Shown: piece by piece, positions 33,560 through 56,911 of the stretch
How positions within the stretch are numbered: position 1 is the stretch's first letter
How the letters are laid out: each line of letters begins with the position of its first letter
Assembly: GCF_007860075.1 (NCBI RefSeq)
Contig: NZ_SJPP01000001.1
Span: 3,135,490-3,199,489, forward strand
Source: Symmachiella macrocystis
GTDB taxonomy: Bacteria; Planctomycetota; Planctomycetia; Planctomycetales; Planctomycetaceae
Direction of reading: 5' to 3'
DNA length: 64,000 bases
The notes under the pieces: generated by a model
What the model was told of the DNA's origin: nothing
The model's database searches: none
The model's input: only the letters and a program-made list of their open reading frames with translations
Made by a program: the position numbers and the translations under genes

Positions 33560-34849
33560 ATGGCCACAGCCGTCATTGTTGATGGGATTCGTACGCCGTT
33601 TGTAAAAGCGGGAGGACCGCTGACCGACGTCGACGCGCCCGAATTGGGGCGGATGGTCGTCCGTGAATTGCTCGACCGCAATAACTTTGATCCCGCGGCC
33701 GTCGACGAATTGATCGCCGGCAATGTGGCGTCACCCGCGGATTCGGCCAATGTCGCACGTGTGATCGCGCTGCGGTGCGGCATGCCGCAGGCCAGTATCG
33801 CGCACACCGTCAACCGCAATTGCGCCAGCGGCATGGAAAGCGTGACCGAAGCAGTCGCCAAAATCGAAGCGGGCGAAGCAAGCTGCGTCGTTGCTTTGGG
33901 GGTCGATTCCATGAGCAATATCCCCGTCTTTTGGAAAAAACGATTCGCCGAAAAGCTGTTTTCCGTCGTCAAAGGTCGCAGTCCGCTACAGAAATTGGGA
34001 GCCATCACCCGGTTTCGCCCAGCCGATTTTCAGCCGCAGATCGGCATCGAGATGGGCCTCAAAGATCCCGTTTCCGGTTTGATGATGGGAGACACGGCTG
34101 AAAAGTTAGCCCGTGAATATGACATCAGCCGTGAAGAACAAGATGCCTTTGCGCTCCGCAGCCACCAGCGCGCGGTCGAAGCCTGGAAAGAGGACCGGCT
34201 TAGCAATCAAACCATGACCGCCTATGCCGGCAAAAAGGCGACTCCGATCGAACAGGATATCGGACCGCGCGACAACCAAAGCCTCACGGCCCTTGGCAAA
34301 TTGAAACCTTATTTCGATCGTCGTTGGGGGACCGTTACCGTAGGCAATTCCTGCCAAGTCACCGACGGCGGGGTCGCCCTGTTGATCATGGAAGAAGAGA
34401 CCGCCAAGATGCACGGACTGCAACCGCTGGGGAGAATTCGCGGTTCGGCCTACGCCGGTTGTGATCCCGCACGCATGGGACTCGGACCGGTCTATGCCAG
34501 CGCCAAAGCGTTAAAAGCCAGTGGCATGAAACTCAGCGAAATGGAATTGGTCGAAATCAACGAGGCCTTTGCCGCCCAGGTGCTGGCGTGCTTGAAAGGT
34601 TTTGAAAATCCACCCCAGGATTGTGCCGCCTATGAGGACCGCACGCTGCTGGGGCCGCTGGATCAAGAGAAATTAAACGTCAATGGCGGCGCCATTGCCT
34701 TAGGACATCCTGTGGGGGCCACCGGGGCGCGATTGGTCTTAACAGCGCTGCGAGAATTGGAACGGCGCAACCAGCGCATCGGATTGGCGACATTATGTGT
34801 CGGTGGCGGACAAGGCGCAGCGGTCATCGTCGAACGCATCGCTGCGTGA
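33560..34849 (+). CDS. Acetyl-CoA acyltransferase (3-ketoacyl-CoA thiolase)
   Basis: 429 residues. Cleaves 3-ketoacyl-CoA with CoA to give acetyl-CoA and a shorter acyl-CoA. The acyl-accepting Cys is C88 in 'NRNCASGME'. The second catalytic pair is in '[18 protein letters not shown]' and '[10 protein letters not shown]'. The insertion around residues 115-175 resembles FadI-type (multienzyme complex) thiolases. GGAGGG lies just upstream of the ATG. Together with the next gene it makes a complete beta-oxidation core. Confidence 0.92.
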
Positions 34850-41453: not shown

Positions 41454-42128
41454 ATGGTTCACGTCATCGGCACCTATTTGCCGCGCTTGCTTCGCCATGT
41501 CATCTGGGATCCGCTTTGGAAAATGCCCTCCCAGGGAAAAAATCTGTATTTGACGTTCGACGACGGACCGGATGAGGTCGCCACGCCGCAGTTGTTGGAG
41601 ATTTTAGACCGGCATCAGGCCAACGCCACATTTTTTCTAAGAGGCGACCACGCCAAGCAGCGGCCGCAACTCGTGCGGGATGTGCTGTCCGCAGGGCATG
41701 CGATCGGCAACCACACCTATTCGCACGCCAACGCCTGGAAGGTATCCAGCGACGAATACGAAGCGGAATTGGAACGCGCGACCGTCATCCTGCAGCAATT
41801 GGCCGGTGAGCCAATCCGTTGGATGCGCCCCCCGTTCGGACGGATCACGCCCGCCGCACTGACCTGGTGCAAACACGCCGGTCAGAAGTTAGTCATGTGG
41901 GACGTCCTGCCGGGGGATTTCACACCGACTGCGACGGCAGCGCAAGTCGCACAATGGACACACAACCGCATTCGCCCGGGAAGCATTGTTTGCTTACACG
42001 ACAACCCCAAGTCCCGCAGCGTGACACCAGCGGCGATGGAGGAGCTGCTGCCATGGTTATTGGATGACGGTTGGCGACTGTGTGCACTGCCACCGTTAAT
42101 CCACACGGAAAAAACGGCGGCCTTTTAA
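41454..42128 (+). CDS. NodB-type polysaccharide deacetylase
   Basis: 224 residues. Metal-dependent removal of acetyl groups from N-acetylglucosamine-type sugars. The NodB motifs are 'YLTFDDGPDEVATPQLLEIL', 'AIGNHTYSHANAW' (metal His pair), 'RPPFGRITP' and 'VMWDVLPGDF', with the last His in 'IVCLHDNPKS'. There is no signal peptide, and the N-terminus is a short amphipathic stretch, so cytoplasmic or membrane-side action is likely. AGGA lies 6 bases upstream of the ATG. Its 3' end overlaps the convergent CoA-ligase gene by 33 bases. Confidence 0.9.
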   Translation: MVHVIGTYLPRLLRHVIWDPLWKMPSQGKNLYLTFDDGPDEVATPQLLEILDRHQANATFFLRGDHAKQRPQLVRDVLSAGHAIGNHTYSHANAWKVSSDEYEAELERATVILQQLAGEPIRWMRPPFGRITPAALTWCKHAGQKLVMWDVLPGDFTPTATAAQVAQWTHNRIRPGSIVCLHDNPKSRSVTPAAMEELLPWLLDDGWRLCALPPLIHTEKTAAF

Positions 42129-43403
42129 CTCAAAGCGGGGGAGGCTGCCGCTGGGGACGACTTTGATCTCCGCATGGAAATTTTGGCGGTCCTTGATCGC
42201 CTCAGCCAATTGCGACGCCAACTGAAATTTGGCTTCCGATTCGGAAATGTGCGGTTGCGGCTCGATTTCGATTTTGACGTGATGCATCGATTTACGAGTG
42301 CTGACTTCGATGCGGTACTCGACGATGTCATCGAATTCTCGCAAAATGCCTTCTAACTTGGATGGATAGACATTGTTGCCGCGAATCGTGATCATGTCGT
42401 CTGTACGGCCCAGGATTCCCCCGTCCAAACAAAGCATTTGTAAGTCGTCGTCGGCTGCCGGGATTTCGGCGCGGACACGATCCCCTGTCCGGTAACGGAT
42501 GAGCGGGCTACCGAGACGGCCGAGATTCGTGATGACCAATTCCCCTTCTTCGCCTACGGCCACAGGTTGTCCGGTCTTGGGGTCGATGATCTCAGCAATG
42601 CACTCGGTTTCCAGCATGTACAAGCTGCCGGGACGGTCGATACTTTCCACGGCTAGCGCGCCGACCTCGGTCATTCCCCAATGATCGATCACCCGGGCGC
42701 CCCAAGCCGTTTCGATGGCATGACGAGTGGCAGGGATATTTCCACCCGGTTCGCCGGCTACCAAGATAATACGGACCGAGTTGCCGGCCAGATCGATGCC
42801 CTGTTCTCGCGCGATTTCGGCCAGTCGTAGTGCGTAGGTCGGCGTGCAACAGACAAACGTCGCGCCATGTTGTTCGATCAATTCCAGCCGGGCTTGGCTG
42901 CTCATTCCGCCACCCGGTAGGCACAGGTTTCCCAACCGGACCGCTCCTTCAAACCCGGCCCAGAATCCCAGAAACGGTCCAAAGGAAAACGGAAACACCA
43001 ACCGGTCTTGCGGTGTGAGACGAATGATTTGATAGATCTGGGACCAGCAACGCATCAGCCAGTTCCAACAGGTTGGCGTGTCCATCCAACGCATGGGCGA
43101 TCCGGTCGTGCCCGAGGTTTGGTGCAAACGGCTATAGGCATCAAATTCGTAGGTCAGATTCGACCCGTACGGCGGATGTGCCGCTTGGTCGGCAAGAATT
43201 TCGGCTTTGGTCACCGTTGGTAATCGCGGCAGGTCTTCGACACTCTTGATCGTCGCCGGATCAATTCCCGCTTCTTTAAGACGAGTCGTCCAAAACGAGT
43301 TTTGGGGAATGATCTCCGCTAACATTTCAACCAGCCTCTCGGACTGGATTTTGCGGATTTCTTCGCGGGTGAGGGAGCGGGGATCGGGGGGGGTGGTCGT
43401 CAT
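42096..43403 (-). CDS. Phenylacetate-CoA ligase-like AMP-binding enzyme
   Basis: 435 residues, the PaaK subfamily length. 'QTSGTTGSPMRWM' is the adenylate loop, 'DHWGMTEVGALA' the second motif, 'RLGSPLIRYRTGDRVRAE' and 'ILGRTDDMITIRGNNVYPS' follow, and the small C-terminal domain ends the protein. PaaK enzymes activate phenylacetate or other aryl acids. In archaea and bacteria they frequently accompany indolepyruvate oxidoreductase, which lies at 51914-54327 here, supporting an aryl acid substrate. Its 3' end overlaps the deacetylase gene by 33 bases on the other strand. Confidence 0.88.
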   Translation of the reverse strand: MTTTPPDPRSLTREEIRKIQSERLVEMLAEIIPQNSFWTTRLKEAGIDPATIKSVEDLPRLPTVTKAEILADQAAHPPYGSNLTYEFDAYSRLHQTSGTTGSPMRWMDTPTCWNWLMRCWSQIYQIIRLTPQDRLVFPFSFGPFLGFWAGFEGAVRLGNLCLPGGGMSSQARLELIEQHGATFVCCTPTYALRLAEIAREQGIDLAGNSVRIILVAGEPGGNIPATRHAIETAWGARVIDHWGMTEVGALAVESIDRPGSLYMLETECIAEIIDPKTGQPVAVGEEGELVITNLGRLGSPLIRYRTGDRVRAEIPAADDDLQMLCLDGGILGRTDDMITIRGNNVYPSKLEGILREFDDIVEYRIEVSTRKSMHHVKIEIEPQPHISESEAKFQLASQLAEAIKDRQNFHAEIKVVPSGSLPRFELKGRRFFRVD

Positions 43404-51490: not shown

Positions 51491-51835
51491 TTAGTATAGA
51501 TTGTAACAAAGCGACTTCAGCGTTTCCCGGTGGCGAGCTTCGGTCTCGGCGATTTGACGCTTCAAGTCTTCTTGGGCTGGTAGGCTGGCTGCCGACTGGA
51601 ATTGCTGCTCGATTTGCTGCATCTTTTCGTCAAACTCGGTTTGCAAGCTTTCCGCATATCTCCCCGCGCCGCCATAGATAATTCCGGGCATAGGTTTGTA
51701 CCTCGGTGGGATGACAATGTGTTCGCACTGATCCTTTGTCATACGCGTTTTGTCAGCCGACAGCAAGGTTTTCCCAGTGATTCGTGCGCGCGGGAGGCTG
51801 TCAAATTGCTGGATCGGATCAGCGCTGGGACGCAT
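51491..51835 (-). CDS. Unknown helical protein
   Basis: 114 residues from ATG 51835; ATG 51742 would give 83. The part after 'IPPRYKPMPGIIYGGAGRYA' is a charged helix, about 50 residues, likely coiled coil ('QIEQQFQSAASLPAQEDLKR'). No motif or membrane helix. Weak evidence for the gene itself; the position in a small gap between Sir2 and a repeat is neutral. Confidence 0.4.
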   Translation of the reverse strand: MRPSADPIQQFDSLPRARITGKTLLSADKTRMTKDQCEHIVIPPRYKPMPGIIYGGAGRYAESLQTEFDEKMQQIEQQFQSAASLPAQEDLKRQIAETEARHRETLKSLCYNLY

Positions 51836-51913: not shown

Positions 51914-52525
51914 CTATTTGGGTTTGCGCGGGGCGGCGGGGTGCACGAGAACGGCGTCGCTGCCAGCGGCGAACATATCGAGGTTGGCGGGGAGGAACCG
52001 TGGTTGTACGACCAATTCGATAGCGGCCTTCCAGGTCGACTCGTCGAAGGGCAAGATGCCGGACAGCGCGCCGAGCATATAAAAATTCAGGCTCCGCGTT
52101 TGCTCGGCGTCGTGGGTCGTTTCGGTACCGTCCAGCCACAGGCAGTTGGGATATTTCAGTTCGTCAAACTCCGGCGGCGGTTCGGAGCGGGCGGTGCCGT
52201 TGCTATCAATCCAGAAACGGTTGATCAGTGCGGTGCCGTTGTTGTTGAGATACGGCAAGCGTCGCAAGCCTTCTTGCATCTCCAGCGAAACTAAGAAATC
52301 AATCGCCCCTTCGCCGCAGACGGGCGAGTGGACTTCTTCGGCGATACGGACTTGGCACCAGACGCTGCCGAAGCGGCGGCTCAATCCGCGGATTTCACTT
52401 TTCTTGACGTCCAGCCCCGCTTGCAGGGCGACAGCCGCCAACACATCGCCCGCCAGCAGGATTCCCTGCCCGCCGACGCCGGTGAACATTACGGACGACT
52501 CGGTCGTTAGCGTTGCTGATCTCAT
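51914..52525 (-). CDS. iorB: Indolepyruvate ferredoxin oxidoreductase, beta subunit (gamma-domain)
   Basis: 203 residues. The 2-oxoacid:acceptor oxidoreductase gamma-type domain begins with 'VMFTGVGGQGILLAGDVLAA', then 'SEIRGLSRRFGSVWCQVRI' and 'PYLNNNGTALINRF'. Its start overlaps the IorA stop by 4 bases (ATGA), so the two are coupled. With IorA it converts arylpyruvates to arylacetyl-CoA and reduces ferredoxin. The C-terminus is followed by a palindromic repeat. Confidence 0.88.
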   Translation of the reverse strand: MRSATLTTESSVMFTGVGGQGILLAGDVLAAVALQAGLDVKKSEIRGLSRRFGSVWCQVRIAEEVHSPVCGEGAIDFLVSLEMQEGLRRLPYLNNNGTALINRFWIDSNGTARSEPPPEFDELKYPNCLWLDGTETTHDAEQTRSLNFYMLGALSGILPFDESTWKAAIELVVQPRFLPANLDMFAAGSDAVLVHPAAPRKPK

Positions 52526-54327
52526 GAGGGTTGCAACTCAATCAAGTTGGGAGTGGCCGTCAATGAGCGCGGCGCGATCGCATCTTCGGGACAGGCTTGA
52601 ACACACAACGTGCAACCGATGCACAGATCCTCGTTGATCCGCGCCACCCAATTGTCATCCAGCACCTGCTTTTCGACGGCCAGGCAACCAACTTTCATGC
52701 ATTCGCCGCATCCCGTACAGGCTTCGGCGGTGACGAAGGCTTGTTGCACGGGGGCTTTGCGTTCGATGAGCAGACAGGGGGCGCGGCTGATGACGACGCT
52801 TGGTCCGGGATGCTCCAGTGCGTCGCGGAGAATATCCTCGGTCTCATCCATGTCGTACGGATTGGCGACGCGGATCCACTCGATGCCGATCGCTTCGCAC
52901 AGCTTTTCGATGTCGATGCCCTGCGACTCGCGGCCTTGTAGGCCTTGGCCGTTGCCAGGATGCCCTTGCAGGCCGGTCATGGCGGTCGTGGAGTTGTCCA
53001 GAATGAGAATCGTGATCTGCCCCTTATTGTAGACCACATCCATCAACGCGGGAATGCCGGAGTGCAATAACGTGCCGTCACCAATGACCGCTAAAATCCG
53101 ACCTTGGCCTTTGTTCTTGAGCGCCTTTTCCATGCCCAAGGCAGTGCCGATGCTGGCCCCCATGCAGACAACCGTATCGATGCCATTCCAGGGGGCGAAC
53201 GATCCGAGCGTGTAGCAGCCGATGTCACCGGCGACTGTCACACCCAATTTGGAAACCACTGAAAAGATGCCCAAGTATTGGCAGCCAGGGCAGATGCGTG
53301 GGGCGCGGCCGGGGACCTCGGGGTCGCCATTTTCGATCGGTTGCGGAACACCAGCGGCGAAACTTGCCAAAATCCGCTGCGGAGTCAACTCGCCGACGCG
53401 GGGGATCCAACTCTTGCCTTCGACTTCGATTCCCAGTGCGCGAATATGCTCTTCGAGAAACGGGTCGAGTTCTTCGATGACCAACAACCGGTCGACCTTC
53501 GACGCGAAATCGCGAATCGATTCGGCCGGCAGCGGGTAGGTCATGCCCAATTTCAAGACCGACGCTTCCGGAAACGCTTCGCGGACATAGGCATAACACA
53601 TCCCGGACGTGACGATGCCCAATTTGGTGTCGCGGATTTCCGTCTGGTTGATATCGAGTCGCTCAGCCAAGTCGGCCATATGCAGCATGCGATCTTCGAT
53701 CACCATGTGCCGGCTAATCGCTTGCCGAGGCAGCAGGACGTATTTATCAAAATCGGGTTGAAACCCGGTGGCTCCGTTGCGCGATGGATCGGGGGACCCC
53801 AGCGTGACGCGACTTTGCGTATGGCAAACCCGCGTGGTGAGCCGCATCATGACCGGTGTGTCGTATTTTTCGCTCAGGTGCAAAGCGATCCCGACAAAGT
53901 CCTTCGCCTCCTGGCTGTTGGAGGGTTCGAGCATGGGCAGTTTGGCGGCGCGGGCGTAATGCCGACTGTCTTGTTCGTTTTGCGAACTGTGCGCCGAAGG
54001 GTCATCCCCAACGATGACCAGCATGCCGCCGTTGATGCCTGTGTACGAAGCGGAGAACAGCGGATCGGCGGCCACGTTCAACCCAACGTGTTTCATGGAG
54101 ACCATTGAGCGGACGCCGGCAAATGCGGCTCCCAGCGCGGTCTCCAGCGCGACCTTTTCGTTCACCGACCACATGGCTTCCAGTGAGCCATAGGTCGAGG
54201 CGCTCTCCACGATTTCTGTAGCGGGGGTTCCGGGATACCCGGTGGCGACACGAACGCCACTTTCATAGGCGCCGCGCGCAACTGCTTGGTTGCCGGAAAG
54301 TAATAGTGGTTCCAAAGGGTTCGTCAT
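52522..54327 (-). CDS. iorA: Indolepyruvate ferredoxin oxidoreductase, alpha subunit
   Basis: 601 residues. A thiamine-diphosphate enzyme with pyrimidine-binding domain first ('GNQAVARGAYESGVRVATGY', 'GYPGTPATEIVES'), a middle domain, and the ThDP-binding 'VVCMGASIGTALGMEKAL' with 'VIGDGTLLHSG' and 'TILILDNSTTAMTG' later. The C-terminus is a ferredoxin-type region with two clusters: 'CTGCGECMKVGC' and 'CIGCTLCVQACP'. It oxidises aromatic 2-oxoacids to acyl-CoA. The stop overlaps IorB by 4 bases, and the upstream acyltransferase ends 3 bases before its ATG. Confidence 0.92.
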   Translation of the reverse strand: MTNPLEPLLLSGNQAVARGAYESGVRVATGYPGTPATEIVESASTYGSLEAMWSVNEKVALETALGAAFAGVRSMVSMKHVGLNVAADPLFSASYTGINGGMLVIVGDDPSAHSSQNEQDSRHYARAAKLPMLEPSNSQEAKDFVGIALHLSEKYDTPVMMRLTTRVCHTQSRVTLGSPDPSRNGATGFQPDFDKYVLLPRQAISRHMVIEDRMLHMADLAERLDINQTEIRDTKLGIVTSGMCYAYVREAFPEASVLKLGMTYPLPAESIRDFASKVDRLLVIEELDPFLEEHIRALGIEVEGKSWIPRVGELTPQRILASFAAGVPQPIENGDPEVPGRAPRICPGCQYLGIFSVVSKLGVTVAGDIGCYTLGSFAPWNGIDTVVCMGASIGTALGMEKALKNKGQGRILAVIGDGTLLHSGIPALMDVVYNKGQITILILDNSTTAMTGLQGHPGNGQGLQGRESQGIDIEKLCEAIGIEWIRVANPYDMDETEDILRDALEHPGPSVVISRAPCLLIERKAPVQQAFVTAEACTGCGECMKVGCLAVEKQVLDDNWVARINEDLCIGCTLCVQACPEDAIAPRSLTATPNLIELQPS

Positions 54328-54330
54328 GAA

Positions 54331-55344
54331 CTACCGGTCCGTCAAAACAGGAGTTGTCGGGTCAATGGCATTGGCCGTTTCATCTCGTGCGAGCAAATCG
54401 GAGACCGTTTCAATTTTCGCGGAGGGATCAATGAACGGCATCATCCCGGTCAGAACGGCTGCAGCGCCGACTTCCACAAACTGCGTAATGCTCAAATCCC
54501 CCAACGCATGCATGGTTGCTTCCCAACGCACGGGTCGTTGGAGGAATTGGCCTAAATATCGGCGAACATCCACAGCGGTGTGCATGGGACTCGCTGTGTC
54601 GCAGTTCATTTGAGGAATAGTCGGATCGTCGATCGTAATCCTCGCCAGCGCTGTTTGGAGTTCGCGGTTCACATCGGCCAGCAACGGTGTGTGCATGGCC
54701 CGCGAACCGGCGATGCGTTGGGTTTTCTTTGCTGCCTGCTCTCCAGCTTTTTCCAAGGCAGCATCGACGCCGACGGCGCGGCCGGCAATCACAAATTGCT
54801 TCGGAGAGTTGCTGTTGGCAAGGTAAACATATTGTTCGTCGGCGCAGATCCGCGTCACAGTTTCCTCGTCCAGCCCGATGATCACACCCATCGCTTGTTC
54901 ACCGTCGGGAATACGTTGTTCCAACAGATCTTCGACGGCTGTGACCATTTCTAAACCGGATTCGAAATCGATCGCTCCGGCGGCGTAAGCAGCGGCCCAG
55001 CTTCCCAGGCTGTGCCCGCAGACGAACTGCGGCTGTCGGCCTAAGCTGCGCAAGACATCAACATAGGCACAATTGATGACATAAATGACCTGTGCTTCGA
55101 TTCGTGGCGGGACAAATTTTCGGCCACTACCGGAAAAGCACACCTCATGAATGTCATAACCTAGTTTCTGAGCAGCGAGCGTAATCAACTTATCGGCTGC
55201 GGGGGATTTGCCGATGATATCGGCTCCCATGCCAACGAACCGCGAGCCCAGTCCGGGGAAAAGCCAAGCGACCGGGTCGGCCGTGGAATGGGCTTTGACC
55301 GTTTCAGCTGTTTCGTCAATTGTTTTGCGTACGCCTACCGACAT
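54331..55344 (-). CDS. FabD-family acyltransferase lacking the malonyl-binding Arg
   Basis: 337 residues from ATG 55344 (AAGGA upstream; TTG 55347 adjoins). The fold is that of malonyl-CoA:ACP transacylase, with nucleophile S112 in 'GHSLGSW' and His 218 in 'RAMHTPLL'. An ungapped alignment to E. coli FabD from the Ser puts V137 where FabD has Arg117, the residue that grips the malonyl carboxylate. The N-terminal 'FPGLGSR' also replaces GQGSQ. The enzyme is therefore probably not malonyl-specific. It ends 3 bases before iorA, which suggests use of the IorAB acyl-CoA product. I call it FabD-like rather than fabD. Confidence 0.85.
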   Translation of the reverse strand: MSVGVRKTIDETAETVKAHSTADPVAWLFPGLGSRFVGMGADIIGKSPAADKLITLAAQKLGYDIHEVCFSGSGRKFVPPRIEAQVIYVINCAYVDVLRSLGRQPQFVCGHSLGSWAAAYAAGAIDFESGLEMVTAVEDLLEQRIPDGEQAMGVIIGLDEETVTRICADEQYVYLANSNSPKQFVIAGRAVGVDAALEKAGEQAAKKTQRIAGSRAMHTPLLADVNRELQTALARITIDDPTIPQMNCDTASPMHTAVDVRRYLGQFLQRPVRWEATMHALGDLSITQFVEVGAAAVLTGMMPFIDPSAKIETVSDLLARDETANAIDPTTPVLTDR

Positions 55345-55347
55345 CAA

Positions 55348-55864: not shown

Positions 55865-56911
55865 TCACATATTGCTAGGATTTAAGTGCGTTAGGAAAAA
55901 TGAGCGAACCTTGTCGTGGTATTCATGCTGTGCCACTTGAATGCTCTGGTTGTGCTTTGCCCCATTGACCTTCCAAAATTGCTCCGGTTGGCCGTTTCCA
56001 TTGAAAATCGCCTCGATCACCTCCGTGCGAACGTAATTGTCCCGATTACCGTGAATCAGGAACCACGGCCGCCGGGTAAGCGACCTAAACGATTTCTCCA
56101 TATGGGGATAGCGACAATGTCGGCGACGTTGGATGCGCGCCAACTCCATGCGAGTAATACCCGCATGCACCCATGGGGGGAGCATCCGTAGCAATCCGCC
56201 AAAGGCGACGACCAAGTGCACCCACCGCTCTACATAAATGGTGACGATGGAATGTGTGGGAAAGGCGCCATCTGTAATCACTGCCTGAATTCGTGGATTG
56301 CGCGCGGCTGCGACAATTGCCGCCCCACCACCCTTGGAGACTCCAAATAATCCAATTTCTTCGAACGAAGCAATTTGCTGCGACGTCACATATTCGATCG
56401 CGGAATCGACATCGGCCACTTCGTGCTCGGTGACCCATTGCAACGGCTGGTAGCCATCGATCGCGTCGCTTTGTCCGTGGTTCGAGAAGTCAAACGTAAA
56501 GACGTCGAAGCCGTCATCGCGAATGAAGTCCACGTAAGGTTGAAATAGCCAGCGATTGCCGGTGAATTCGTGGCAAAAGATGATCAGCCCGCGGCGCTCA
56601 CCGCCGCGATGCCGAAACAGACTTCCCACAAGTCGGCGGCCAGTTGAGGTGGTCAACTCGACGGGATCGTCGTCTGGAGCGGGGTCGACGAGTTGTGCCT
56701 GCAACGGCGGCGCGCTTTCAAACAGACGTTGGAATTCTTTGGTATAAAAAATCCCAAGCAAAATCGGCACGGCGACGACTGCGCACAATACGACCGCCAA
56801 GCCGTATCCCCCGATGGTCCACCAGTCGATCGTCGCGATTACCTGCACCGCTATCCCACGTTTGTCATTGATCCGAAACCAGGAGAGGCTGCCGCGGAGT
56901 GGCCATTGCAC
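55865..56911 (-). CDS. Membrane-anchored alpha/beta hydrolase
   Basis: 348 residues from GTG 56911; an internal GTG a short way downstream would be an alternative start. One helix at about residues 33-53 ('GYGLAVVLCAVVAVPILLGI') anchors the protein. The hydrolase domain has 'LIIFCHEFTGNRWLFQPYVD' (oxyanion region), the nucleophile in 'LFGVSKGGGAAIV', the Asp in 'IHGNRDNYV' and the His in 'NGAKHNQS'. The usual nucleophile elbow G-x-S-x-G is 'GVSKG'. A substrate is not indicated. It ends before the Tat-exported gene on the same strand by 19 bases. Confidence 0.82.
   Translation of the reverse strand: MQWPLRGSLSWFRINDKRGIAVQVIATIDWWTIGGYGLAVVLCAVVAVPILLGIFYTKEFQRLFESAPPLQAQLVDPAPDDDPVELTTSTGRRLVGSLFRHRGGERRGLIIFCHEFTGNRWLFQPYVDFIRDDGFDVFTFDFSNHGQSDAIDGYQPLQWVTEHEVADVDSAIEYVTSQQIASFEEIGLFGVSKGGGAAIVAAARNPRIQAVITDGAFPTHSIVTIYVERWVHLVVAFGGLLRMLPPWVHAGITRMELARIQRRRHCRYPHMEKSFRSLTRRPWFLIHGNRDNYVRTEVIEAIFNGNGQPEQFWKVNGAKHNQSIQVAQHEYHDKVRSFFLTHLNPSNM

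Follow-up and report, generated by a model that had tools for sequence, protein, structure and literature searches.

The described enzymes closest to the proteins of this locus are an acyltransferase, FabD, and an oxidoreductase, IorAB. FabD (TIGR00128; 1mla, 6u0j) resembles the acyltransferase-like protein AT in its predicted fold, its Ser-His dyad and its GHSLG motif, and is its nearest group in the tree. However, Arg117, Gln11, Gln14, Gln63 and Gln250 of FabD are all replaced in 13 of 13 ATs, and AT scores under the TIGR00128 cut-off and is paired with IorAB. Among the loading acyltransferases of polyketide synthases (PKS) and the VinK-type acyltransferases, some also lack the malonyl-binding arginine. 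According to sections of PMC6164871, VinK and the avermectin loading acyltransferase handle non-malonyl acyl groups toward ACPs, as is suggested below for AT; unlike AT, they serve PKS assembly lines. The PksD-type acyl hydrolases (PDB 8avz) share with AT both the acyltransferase fold and the loss of the malonyl-binding arginine. They usually have Gln or His at the arginine and oxyanion positions (as described in part of PMC11775670), where AT has Val, Ile or Thr and Leu, and they belong with trans-AT PKS, while no ketosynthase frame in the genome studied here exceeds 466 aa.

Indolepyruvate:ferredoxin oxidoreductase (IorAB; TIGR03336/TIGR03334) has the same subunit layout as the linked pair, with a TPP-enzyme and two [4Fe-4S]-motif regions, but in the linked pair CPGCPHR has become CPGCQYL, the RGG of IorB has become RFG, and IorB reaches only about half of the family cut-offs. 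Portions of PMC13285125 describe the partners of the IOR family as a phosphate acyltransferase with a kinase or an ADP-forming ligase (452 Peptostreptococcales sequences), and as an AMP-forming ligase in Bacteroides; the partners named in those portions do not include an AT, unlike the linked unit. An earlier note on this DNA knew of no described FabD-IorAB pairing, and none was found in the open-licence PMC literature.

The window analysed is a stretch of 64,000 nucleotides from Symmachiella macrocystis. Its features of interest, in window positions, are:

54331–55344, minus strand: FabD-like acyltransferase (AT) gene, ATG start, 337 aa
55350–55354, minus strand: AAGGA resembling a Shine-Dalgarno site, 5 nt upstream of the AT start (ATG at 55344), found by eye
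52522–54327, minus strand: iorA-like gene, TPP-binding subunit with two [4Fe-4S] motifs, 601 aa, CPGCQYL and not CPGCPHR
51914–52525, minus strand: iorB-like gene, gamma subunit, 203 aa, RRFGS and not QRGGS
55865–56911, minus strand: alpha/beta hydrolase gene, upstream of AT on the same strand after a gap of ca. 520 bp
42096–43403, minus strand: PaaK-like AMP-forming ligase gene, 195 bits against a PaaK cut-off of 646, 8.5 kb from the unit

The AT frame can alternatively be read from a TTG (54331–55347, minus strand) that the ATG directly follows; the AAGGA 5 nt upstream favours the ATG as the probable start. Residues R216, R36, E139, Ser113 and His219 of AT are counted here from the TTG, and numbering from the ATG is one lower (S113, H219 and V138 become S112, H218 and V137). 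The start of iorA at 54327 lies 3 bases past the AT stop, and iorA and iorB overlap by 4 bp (52522–52525), so the coordinates agree with the layout that the earlier note gave. The window AT matches Pfam Acyl_transf_1 at 6.2e-29, but is below the cut-offs of both the FabD model TIGR00128 (215.3 against 260.9 bits) and the MdcH model TIGR03131 (168.3 against 297.9 bits).

AT was detected in 13 of the 170 genomes of the window's family, from 6 of 58 genera, in a search at E ≤ 1e-65 with a profile built from five orthologs. Full-length IorA is equally rare in the family – only 13 of 170 genomes have it, at 647.7–677.9 bits, with 64.4 bits for the next match listed (the searches scored at most the 12 best AT and the 7 best IorA candidates per genome). 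The two sets are the same 13 genomes, and 157 genomes have neither gene. These 13 genomes are relatives, not 13 independent events. One of the 15 genomes of genus g34 has the unit, a pattern suggesting that AT-IorAB was gained or lost as a whole. Of 392 genomes drawn from the phylum, 72 had IorA at E ≤ 1e-100 and only two, the window genome and G003, had AT; the five best AT candidates were scored per genome, and the next match to the AT profile was at 1.8e-58.

The earlier note had proposed searching the planctomycetes for the three-gene order. AT directly precedes iorA in all 13 family genomes that have either gene, so the arrangement is not found only here; with the start codons chosen, the distance from stop to start is between -17 and +15 bp. 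This count includes G480, in which AT is split by a contig end and its C-terminal half lies before IorA on the other contig. The iorB gene comes directly after iorA in 11 of the 13 genomes; G003 and G529 instead have iorB-sulfotransferase-AT-iorA. AT was absent from 28 non-linked planctomycete IorA loci, searched together with at most 1.5 kb on either side; they came from the 28 genomes with the highest IorA scores among the other 70 of the phylum draw, and the one match had 18 residues (E 0.41). The same search detected AT at all 13 linked loci to which it was applied, which represent the 12 genomes other than that of the window (two contigs for G480). Because the pattern recurs in 13 genomes, it is not due to chance or sequencing error, and the conservation of the pairing within one planctomycete family is real. 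A scan of genome contigs with the single window AT sequence confirmed no relative, and an alignment scan, based on two peptide patterns only, returned six planctomycete loci (from G477, G479, G478, G031, G529 and G480) and no extra genome. A search of plasmid proteins with AT gave 90 records, all below 60% identity; the 10 matches listed had 29–34% identity and were mostly annotated as FabD.

A phylogeny of AT with FabDs and PKS-type acyltransferases placed the 12 unsplit AT orthologs in a clade of their own (100/100; stem length 2.22), with FabD rather than the PKS-type acyltransferases as the nearest group. The branching of the AT tree is similar, but not identical, to that of the linked IorAs. 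Between the window genome and its nearest relative, G001, the dN/dS of AT is 0.148, a sign of purifying selection; between the same two genomes AT has diverged more than IorA (88.8% and 98.5% identity) and is thus the faster-evolving protein. The fold predicted for AT aligned with the FabD structures 1mla, 3h0p and 6u0j at TM 0.81–0.83 and with PksD (8avz_A) at TM 0.76. It came from an AlphaFold model made with 6 sequences (best pLDDT 75.6, pTM 0.78; the other four models 54.0–60.8), and fine side-chain geometry taken from this model would be weak.

The active sites were compared in a MAFFT alignment of the 13 ATs with FabD of E. coli (NC_000913) and 26 planctomycete FabDs. As the earlier note had described for the window AT, GHSLG, the nucleophile Ser and the catalytic His are kept, and this is true of 13 of 13 orthologs (the gene halves of G480 were taken from two contigs). 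The note's ungapped pairing of E. coli Arg117 with V137 is reproduced by the alignment, and its report of GLGSR in place of GQGSQ also stands. The loss of the malonyl-specific arginine is fixed in the ATs – the Arg117 column has Val in 11, Ile in one and Thr in one – while Arg117 is kept in all 27 FabDs and in 16 of 16 planctomycete PKS-type acyltransferases (17 were fetched, and one that was too short was left out). FabD Gln11 is Leu, Gln14 is Arg and Gly118 is Glu in every AT, and Gln63 is Ala in 10 and Ser in 3. Val198, a Gly in planctomycete FabDs, is Arg in 13 of 13; Ser200, a Phe in planctomycete FabDs, is Met in 10, Ile in 2 and Val in 1; and Gln250 is Phe in 10, Ala in 2 and Cys in 1. 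Since Arg117 is absent from all 13 along with these other pocket changes, and kept in the FabDs and PKS-type acyltransferases, the predicted malonate-binding residue set of AT is replaced jointly. The charged residues R216, R36 and E139 are present in every one of the 13 ATs, at sites that in all 26 planctomycete FabDs are occupied by Gly, Gln and Gly, respectively; R216 is at the Val198 position, three residues ahead of the catalytic His.

The linked oxidoreductases are distinct as well. The window IorA scores 673.1 bits with TIGR03336 (cut-off 650.9), and 10 of the 13 linked IorAs are above this cut-off, with three just below it (647.7–650.3). The 13 form one clade (100/100) relative to 28 other planctomycete IorAs; the tree program warned of long branches, all of which are outside the linked clade. 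After CxGC the linked IorAs have QYL; all 13 share its Tyr-Leu, and each of the 28 non-linked sequences has His-Arg instead. Gly107, Trp380 and Leu453 are each found in all 13 linked and none of the 28 non-linked IorAs. These contrasts, like that of Tyr-Leu with His-Arg, hold when seven divergent rows are included; Ser92, Ser111 and Ala112, also seen in the linked IorAs, are shared by some non-linked rows. From the planctomycete IorA rows fetched, we infer that His-Arg after CxGCx is a mark of IORs at large. In IorB, the first Gly of RGG is Phe in 13 of 13 linked sequences, and RGG is found in 23 of 23 non-linked ones (IorB was found at 24 of the 28 loci, and one was too short); of three solved OFOR chains aligned at this site, two have RGG and one has KGG. 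The window IorB is below both family cut-offs (145.1 against 237 for TIGR03334 and 105.7 against 205.8 for PRK06853), and all five linked IorBs scored (the window's and four others) are far under them. Two non-linked IorBs were near or above cut-offs, one with best scores of 236.3/237 and 235.5/230 and the other with 222.2/230. Judged by these motifs, the oxidoreductase partner is re-specialised alongside AT.

In Sulfolobus OFOR the CXGC loop ligates the proximal cluster, as stated in a section of PMC5020499, and QYL would lie beside that cluster if the CxGC of IorA is equivalent to this loop. When the C-terminal region of IorA was compared with the PDB, the matches were mainly to ferredoxin domains and gave no placement of QYL in a solved IOR. 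A position of Leu453 beside the CoA/specificity loop of Sulfolobus OFOR was not used, since it was placed by eye only. The IorA of G477 (L114) has CTSWGEC as its first ferredoxin motif, compared to CTGCG(E/D)C in the other 12 linked sequences; this may be a sequence error.

Little else is conserved around the unit. Among the ORFs of at least 80 aa that were compared, no neighbour besides AT, iorA and iorB is conserved in all loci. A homolog of the alpha/beta hydrolase is upstream of AT in 4 of 13 genomes, from two genera (the window, L069, L070 and L121); being found in these four only, it is not part of the core unit and is possibly an accessory. By eye, the N-terminus of this hydrolase looks like a membrane segment. 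With AcpP and FabF of E. coli as queries, the stretches examined at the 13 units gave no homolog, while 16 and 14, respectively, of 27 control loci were positive. Thus the ACP that the earlier note had named as a recipient has no counterpart among these stretches, nor has a ketosynthase.

The same note had proposed an arylacetyl or similar group as the cargo; in view of the motif changes in the linked IorAs and IorBs (relative to 28 of 28 and 23 of 23 non-linked sequences) and of the ligases, arylacetyl is a candidate and not an established cargo. A phenylacetate-CoA ligase above the PaaK cut-off was found in none of 25 family genomes (13 with AT and 12 without). Full-length PaaK-like matches of 172–238 bits were found in 24 of these 25, namely in 12 of the 13 with AT (not G478) and 12 of the 12 without. 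The PaaK-like ligase of the window was therefore rejected as a partner of AT, as it is equally present in genomes without AT and is below the cut-off. Ten ORFs tested from the flanks of non-linked IorA loci included two PaaK-like, two AroA, one HisC-type transaminase and one transporter, with four unmatched; HisC and PaaK queries from these loci had no homolog in the 13 fetched linked stretches. With no PaaK above the cut-off and no linked aryl genes, nothing around the unit points to aryl acids.

The window genome (7.57 Mb, 6 contigs) has two AT-family genes, both of them single-domain frames – the window AT and a FabD on contig C2. Its nine ketosynthase matches, two of them short and weak, are all in frames of 395–466 aa, so no megasynthase is seen in this genome. 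There is a partial PF00109 match of 21 bits in the window at 33737–33919.

The reading that we favour, to which we give about an even chance, is that AT is a dedicated acyltransferase moving a non-malonyl acyl group from the oxidoreductase to a thiol acceptor encoded elsewhere. AT, IorA and IorB would form one functional module. The IorAB-like enzyme would oxidatively decarboxylate a 2-oxoacid, reduce ferredoxin and form an activated acyl group, which in the simplest case is an acyl-CoA. Ser113 of AT would accept this group as an acyl-serine ester, with His219 as the base, and pass it on to an ACP or to another pantetheine or thiol. The replacements of Gln11, Gln63, Arg117, Ser200 and Gln250 would have converted the pocket from malonate-binding to non-malonyl. 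From the sequences, we infer acyl transfer, its direction, an uncharged cargo and a thiol acceptor; an aryl or branched-chain 2-oxoacid is a guess at the substrate, drawn from the IOR family alone.

Several observations argue for acyl transfer – the co-occurrence in 13 of 170 genomes, the adjacency in 13 of 13, the retained Ser and His, and the separate FabD in the genome. The loss of Arg117, the single clades of AT and of the linked IorAs, and the FabD-like predicted fold count in its favour as well. The GHSL of transferases is also kept in the ATs, unlike in many acyl hydrolases. A PedD variant with the arginine changed to Gln was acylated by acetyl and did not hydrolyse it, as reported in part of PMC11775670, which fits a transferase that has lost this arginine. 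Against transfer are the lack of an AcpP or FabF homolog in any of the stretches searched around the 13 units, the faster evolution of AT than of IorA, and Leu in 13 of 13 at the Gln11 position, a conserved oxyanion-hole residue of acyltransferases and acyl hydrolases. This Leu may be tolerated, because the oxyanion hole uses the backbone NH of the equivalent residue in an acyl hydrolase (a section of PMC11775670). The invariant R216 may also put a charge into the pocket.

A more direct version of such transfer is distinctly improbable. AT would dock on an oxidoreductase whose acceptor is no longer free CoA, so that acyl-ACP is made directly from the 2-oxoacid. AT would receive the acyl group either from TPP, by way of a bound thiol, or from CoA that is channelled to it, before giving it to the carrier; the fixed changes in IorA (QYL, Gly107, Trp380, Leu453), in IorB (Phe52) and in AT would be the two sides of an interface.

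The AT-fold protein could instead be a thioesterase-like acyl hydrolase – the acyl-serine would be given to water, and the release of free acid and CoA would drive the oxidoreductase one way. This is unlikely, but has some points in its favour. Among trans-AT PKS acyl hydrolases the acyltransferase fold occurs without the arginine, and the absence of the arginine is called diagnostic there (portions of PMC11775670); PksD is among the fold matches of AT (8avz_A), and recycling of CoA would suit an oxidoreductase whose unit has neither a kinase nor a ligase. The details of the active site fit less well. In the same portions of PMC11775670, the arginine position of PksD is Gln, and Q124A is inactive, whereas the ATs have Val, Ile or Thr; Gln12 of the hydrolases is conserved as Gln or His, and is Leu in 13 of 13 ATs; the hydrolases often replace the His of GHSL, which is kept in 13 of 13 ATs; and acetyl-CoA is not hydrolysed by PksD. 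Nor does the window genome, with its single-domain acyltransferases and its ketosynthase frames of 395–466 aa, have a megasynthase to edit. If AT is a hydrolase, it would still be a partner of an IOR that was not found in print (open-licence PMC).

The arginine may also have been relocated rather than lost, with R216, possibly together with R36 and E139, anchoring a carboxylate or some other polar moiety on another kind of acyl chain, such as a longer dicarboxylic or hydroxylated one. The fixation of these three residues in the ATs, at sites with other residues in the FabDs, speaks for this, and the motif changes of the linked IOR allow a non-aryl 2-oxoacid. Tyr198 of PksD, which is also three residues before the His, packs on the pocket residue Phe200 (in the part of PMC11775670 that describes it), so R216 could reach the AT pocket. 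However, 2 of 16 PKS-type acyltransferases have Arg in the R216 column and yet keep Arg117, so an Arg there need not replace Arg117, and several residues around the former arginine have turned hydrophobic. Relocation is quite unlikely. It is highly improbable that AT serves the oxidoreductase as a subunit that is structural or lacks catalysis, or that the operon is merely co-regulated. Near-overlapping genes and strict co-occurrence are expected for a subunit too, but none of the 13 ATs has lost the nucleophile Ser, GHSLG or the catalytic His, and the dN/dS of 0.148 indicates purifying selection.

By their sequences, both sides of the AT-IorAB unit depart from known enzyme kinds, and their pairing was not found in print (open-licence PMC). 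This suggests that acyl groups derived from 2-oxoacids are used here in a manner not described before. If acyl transfer to a thiol is correct, ferredoxin-dependent 2-oxoacid oxidation would be linked to acyl-carrier or thioester chemistry by a route of which no description was found. The 13 Arg-less relatives of FabD, outside any PKS, are also a natural set on how FabD specificity is rebuilt.

Other genes near some of the units differ between strains. In the window, an ORF of 114 aa (51491–51835) after iorB has no Pfam or NCBIfam match, and its only counterpart among the loci compared is in G001. G529 has an NAD_binding_4 (thioester-reductase-like) gene after iorA (full order at L117:5532–11531), at best 57% identical to a copy in another family genome; this gene order could be a hint that acyl reduction and sulfation take place in G529. 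Both the thioester reductase (G529) and the sulfotransferase (G003/G529) were rejected as pathway partners, as homologs are found regardless of AT in 152 of 170 (E ≤ 1e-50) and 109 of 170 (E ≤ 1e-60) family genomes, respectively. In G480, large ORFs downstream of iorB (L122:444–5668) appear by eye to be nitrate-reductase-subunit-like. In G002, a sulfotransferase-family gene adjoins a 508-aa AT-like frame (G002:C28:220128–222447, partly L163), which grouped with the PKS-type acyltransferases and has kept the arginine. Outside the window, the window genome has two adjacent single ketosynthase frames of 455 and 466 aa (G000:C1:3385541–3387704), possibly a type II system and a possible user of unusual acyl starters.
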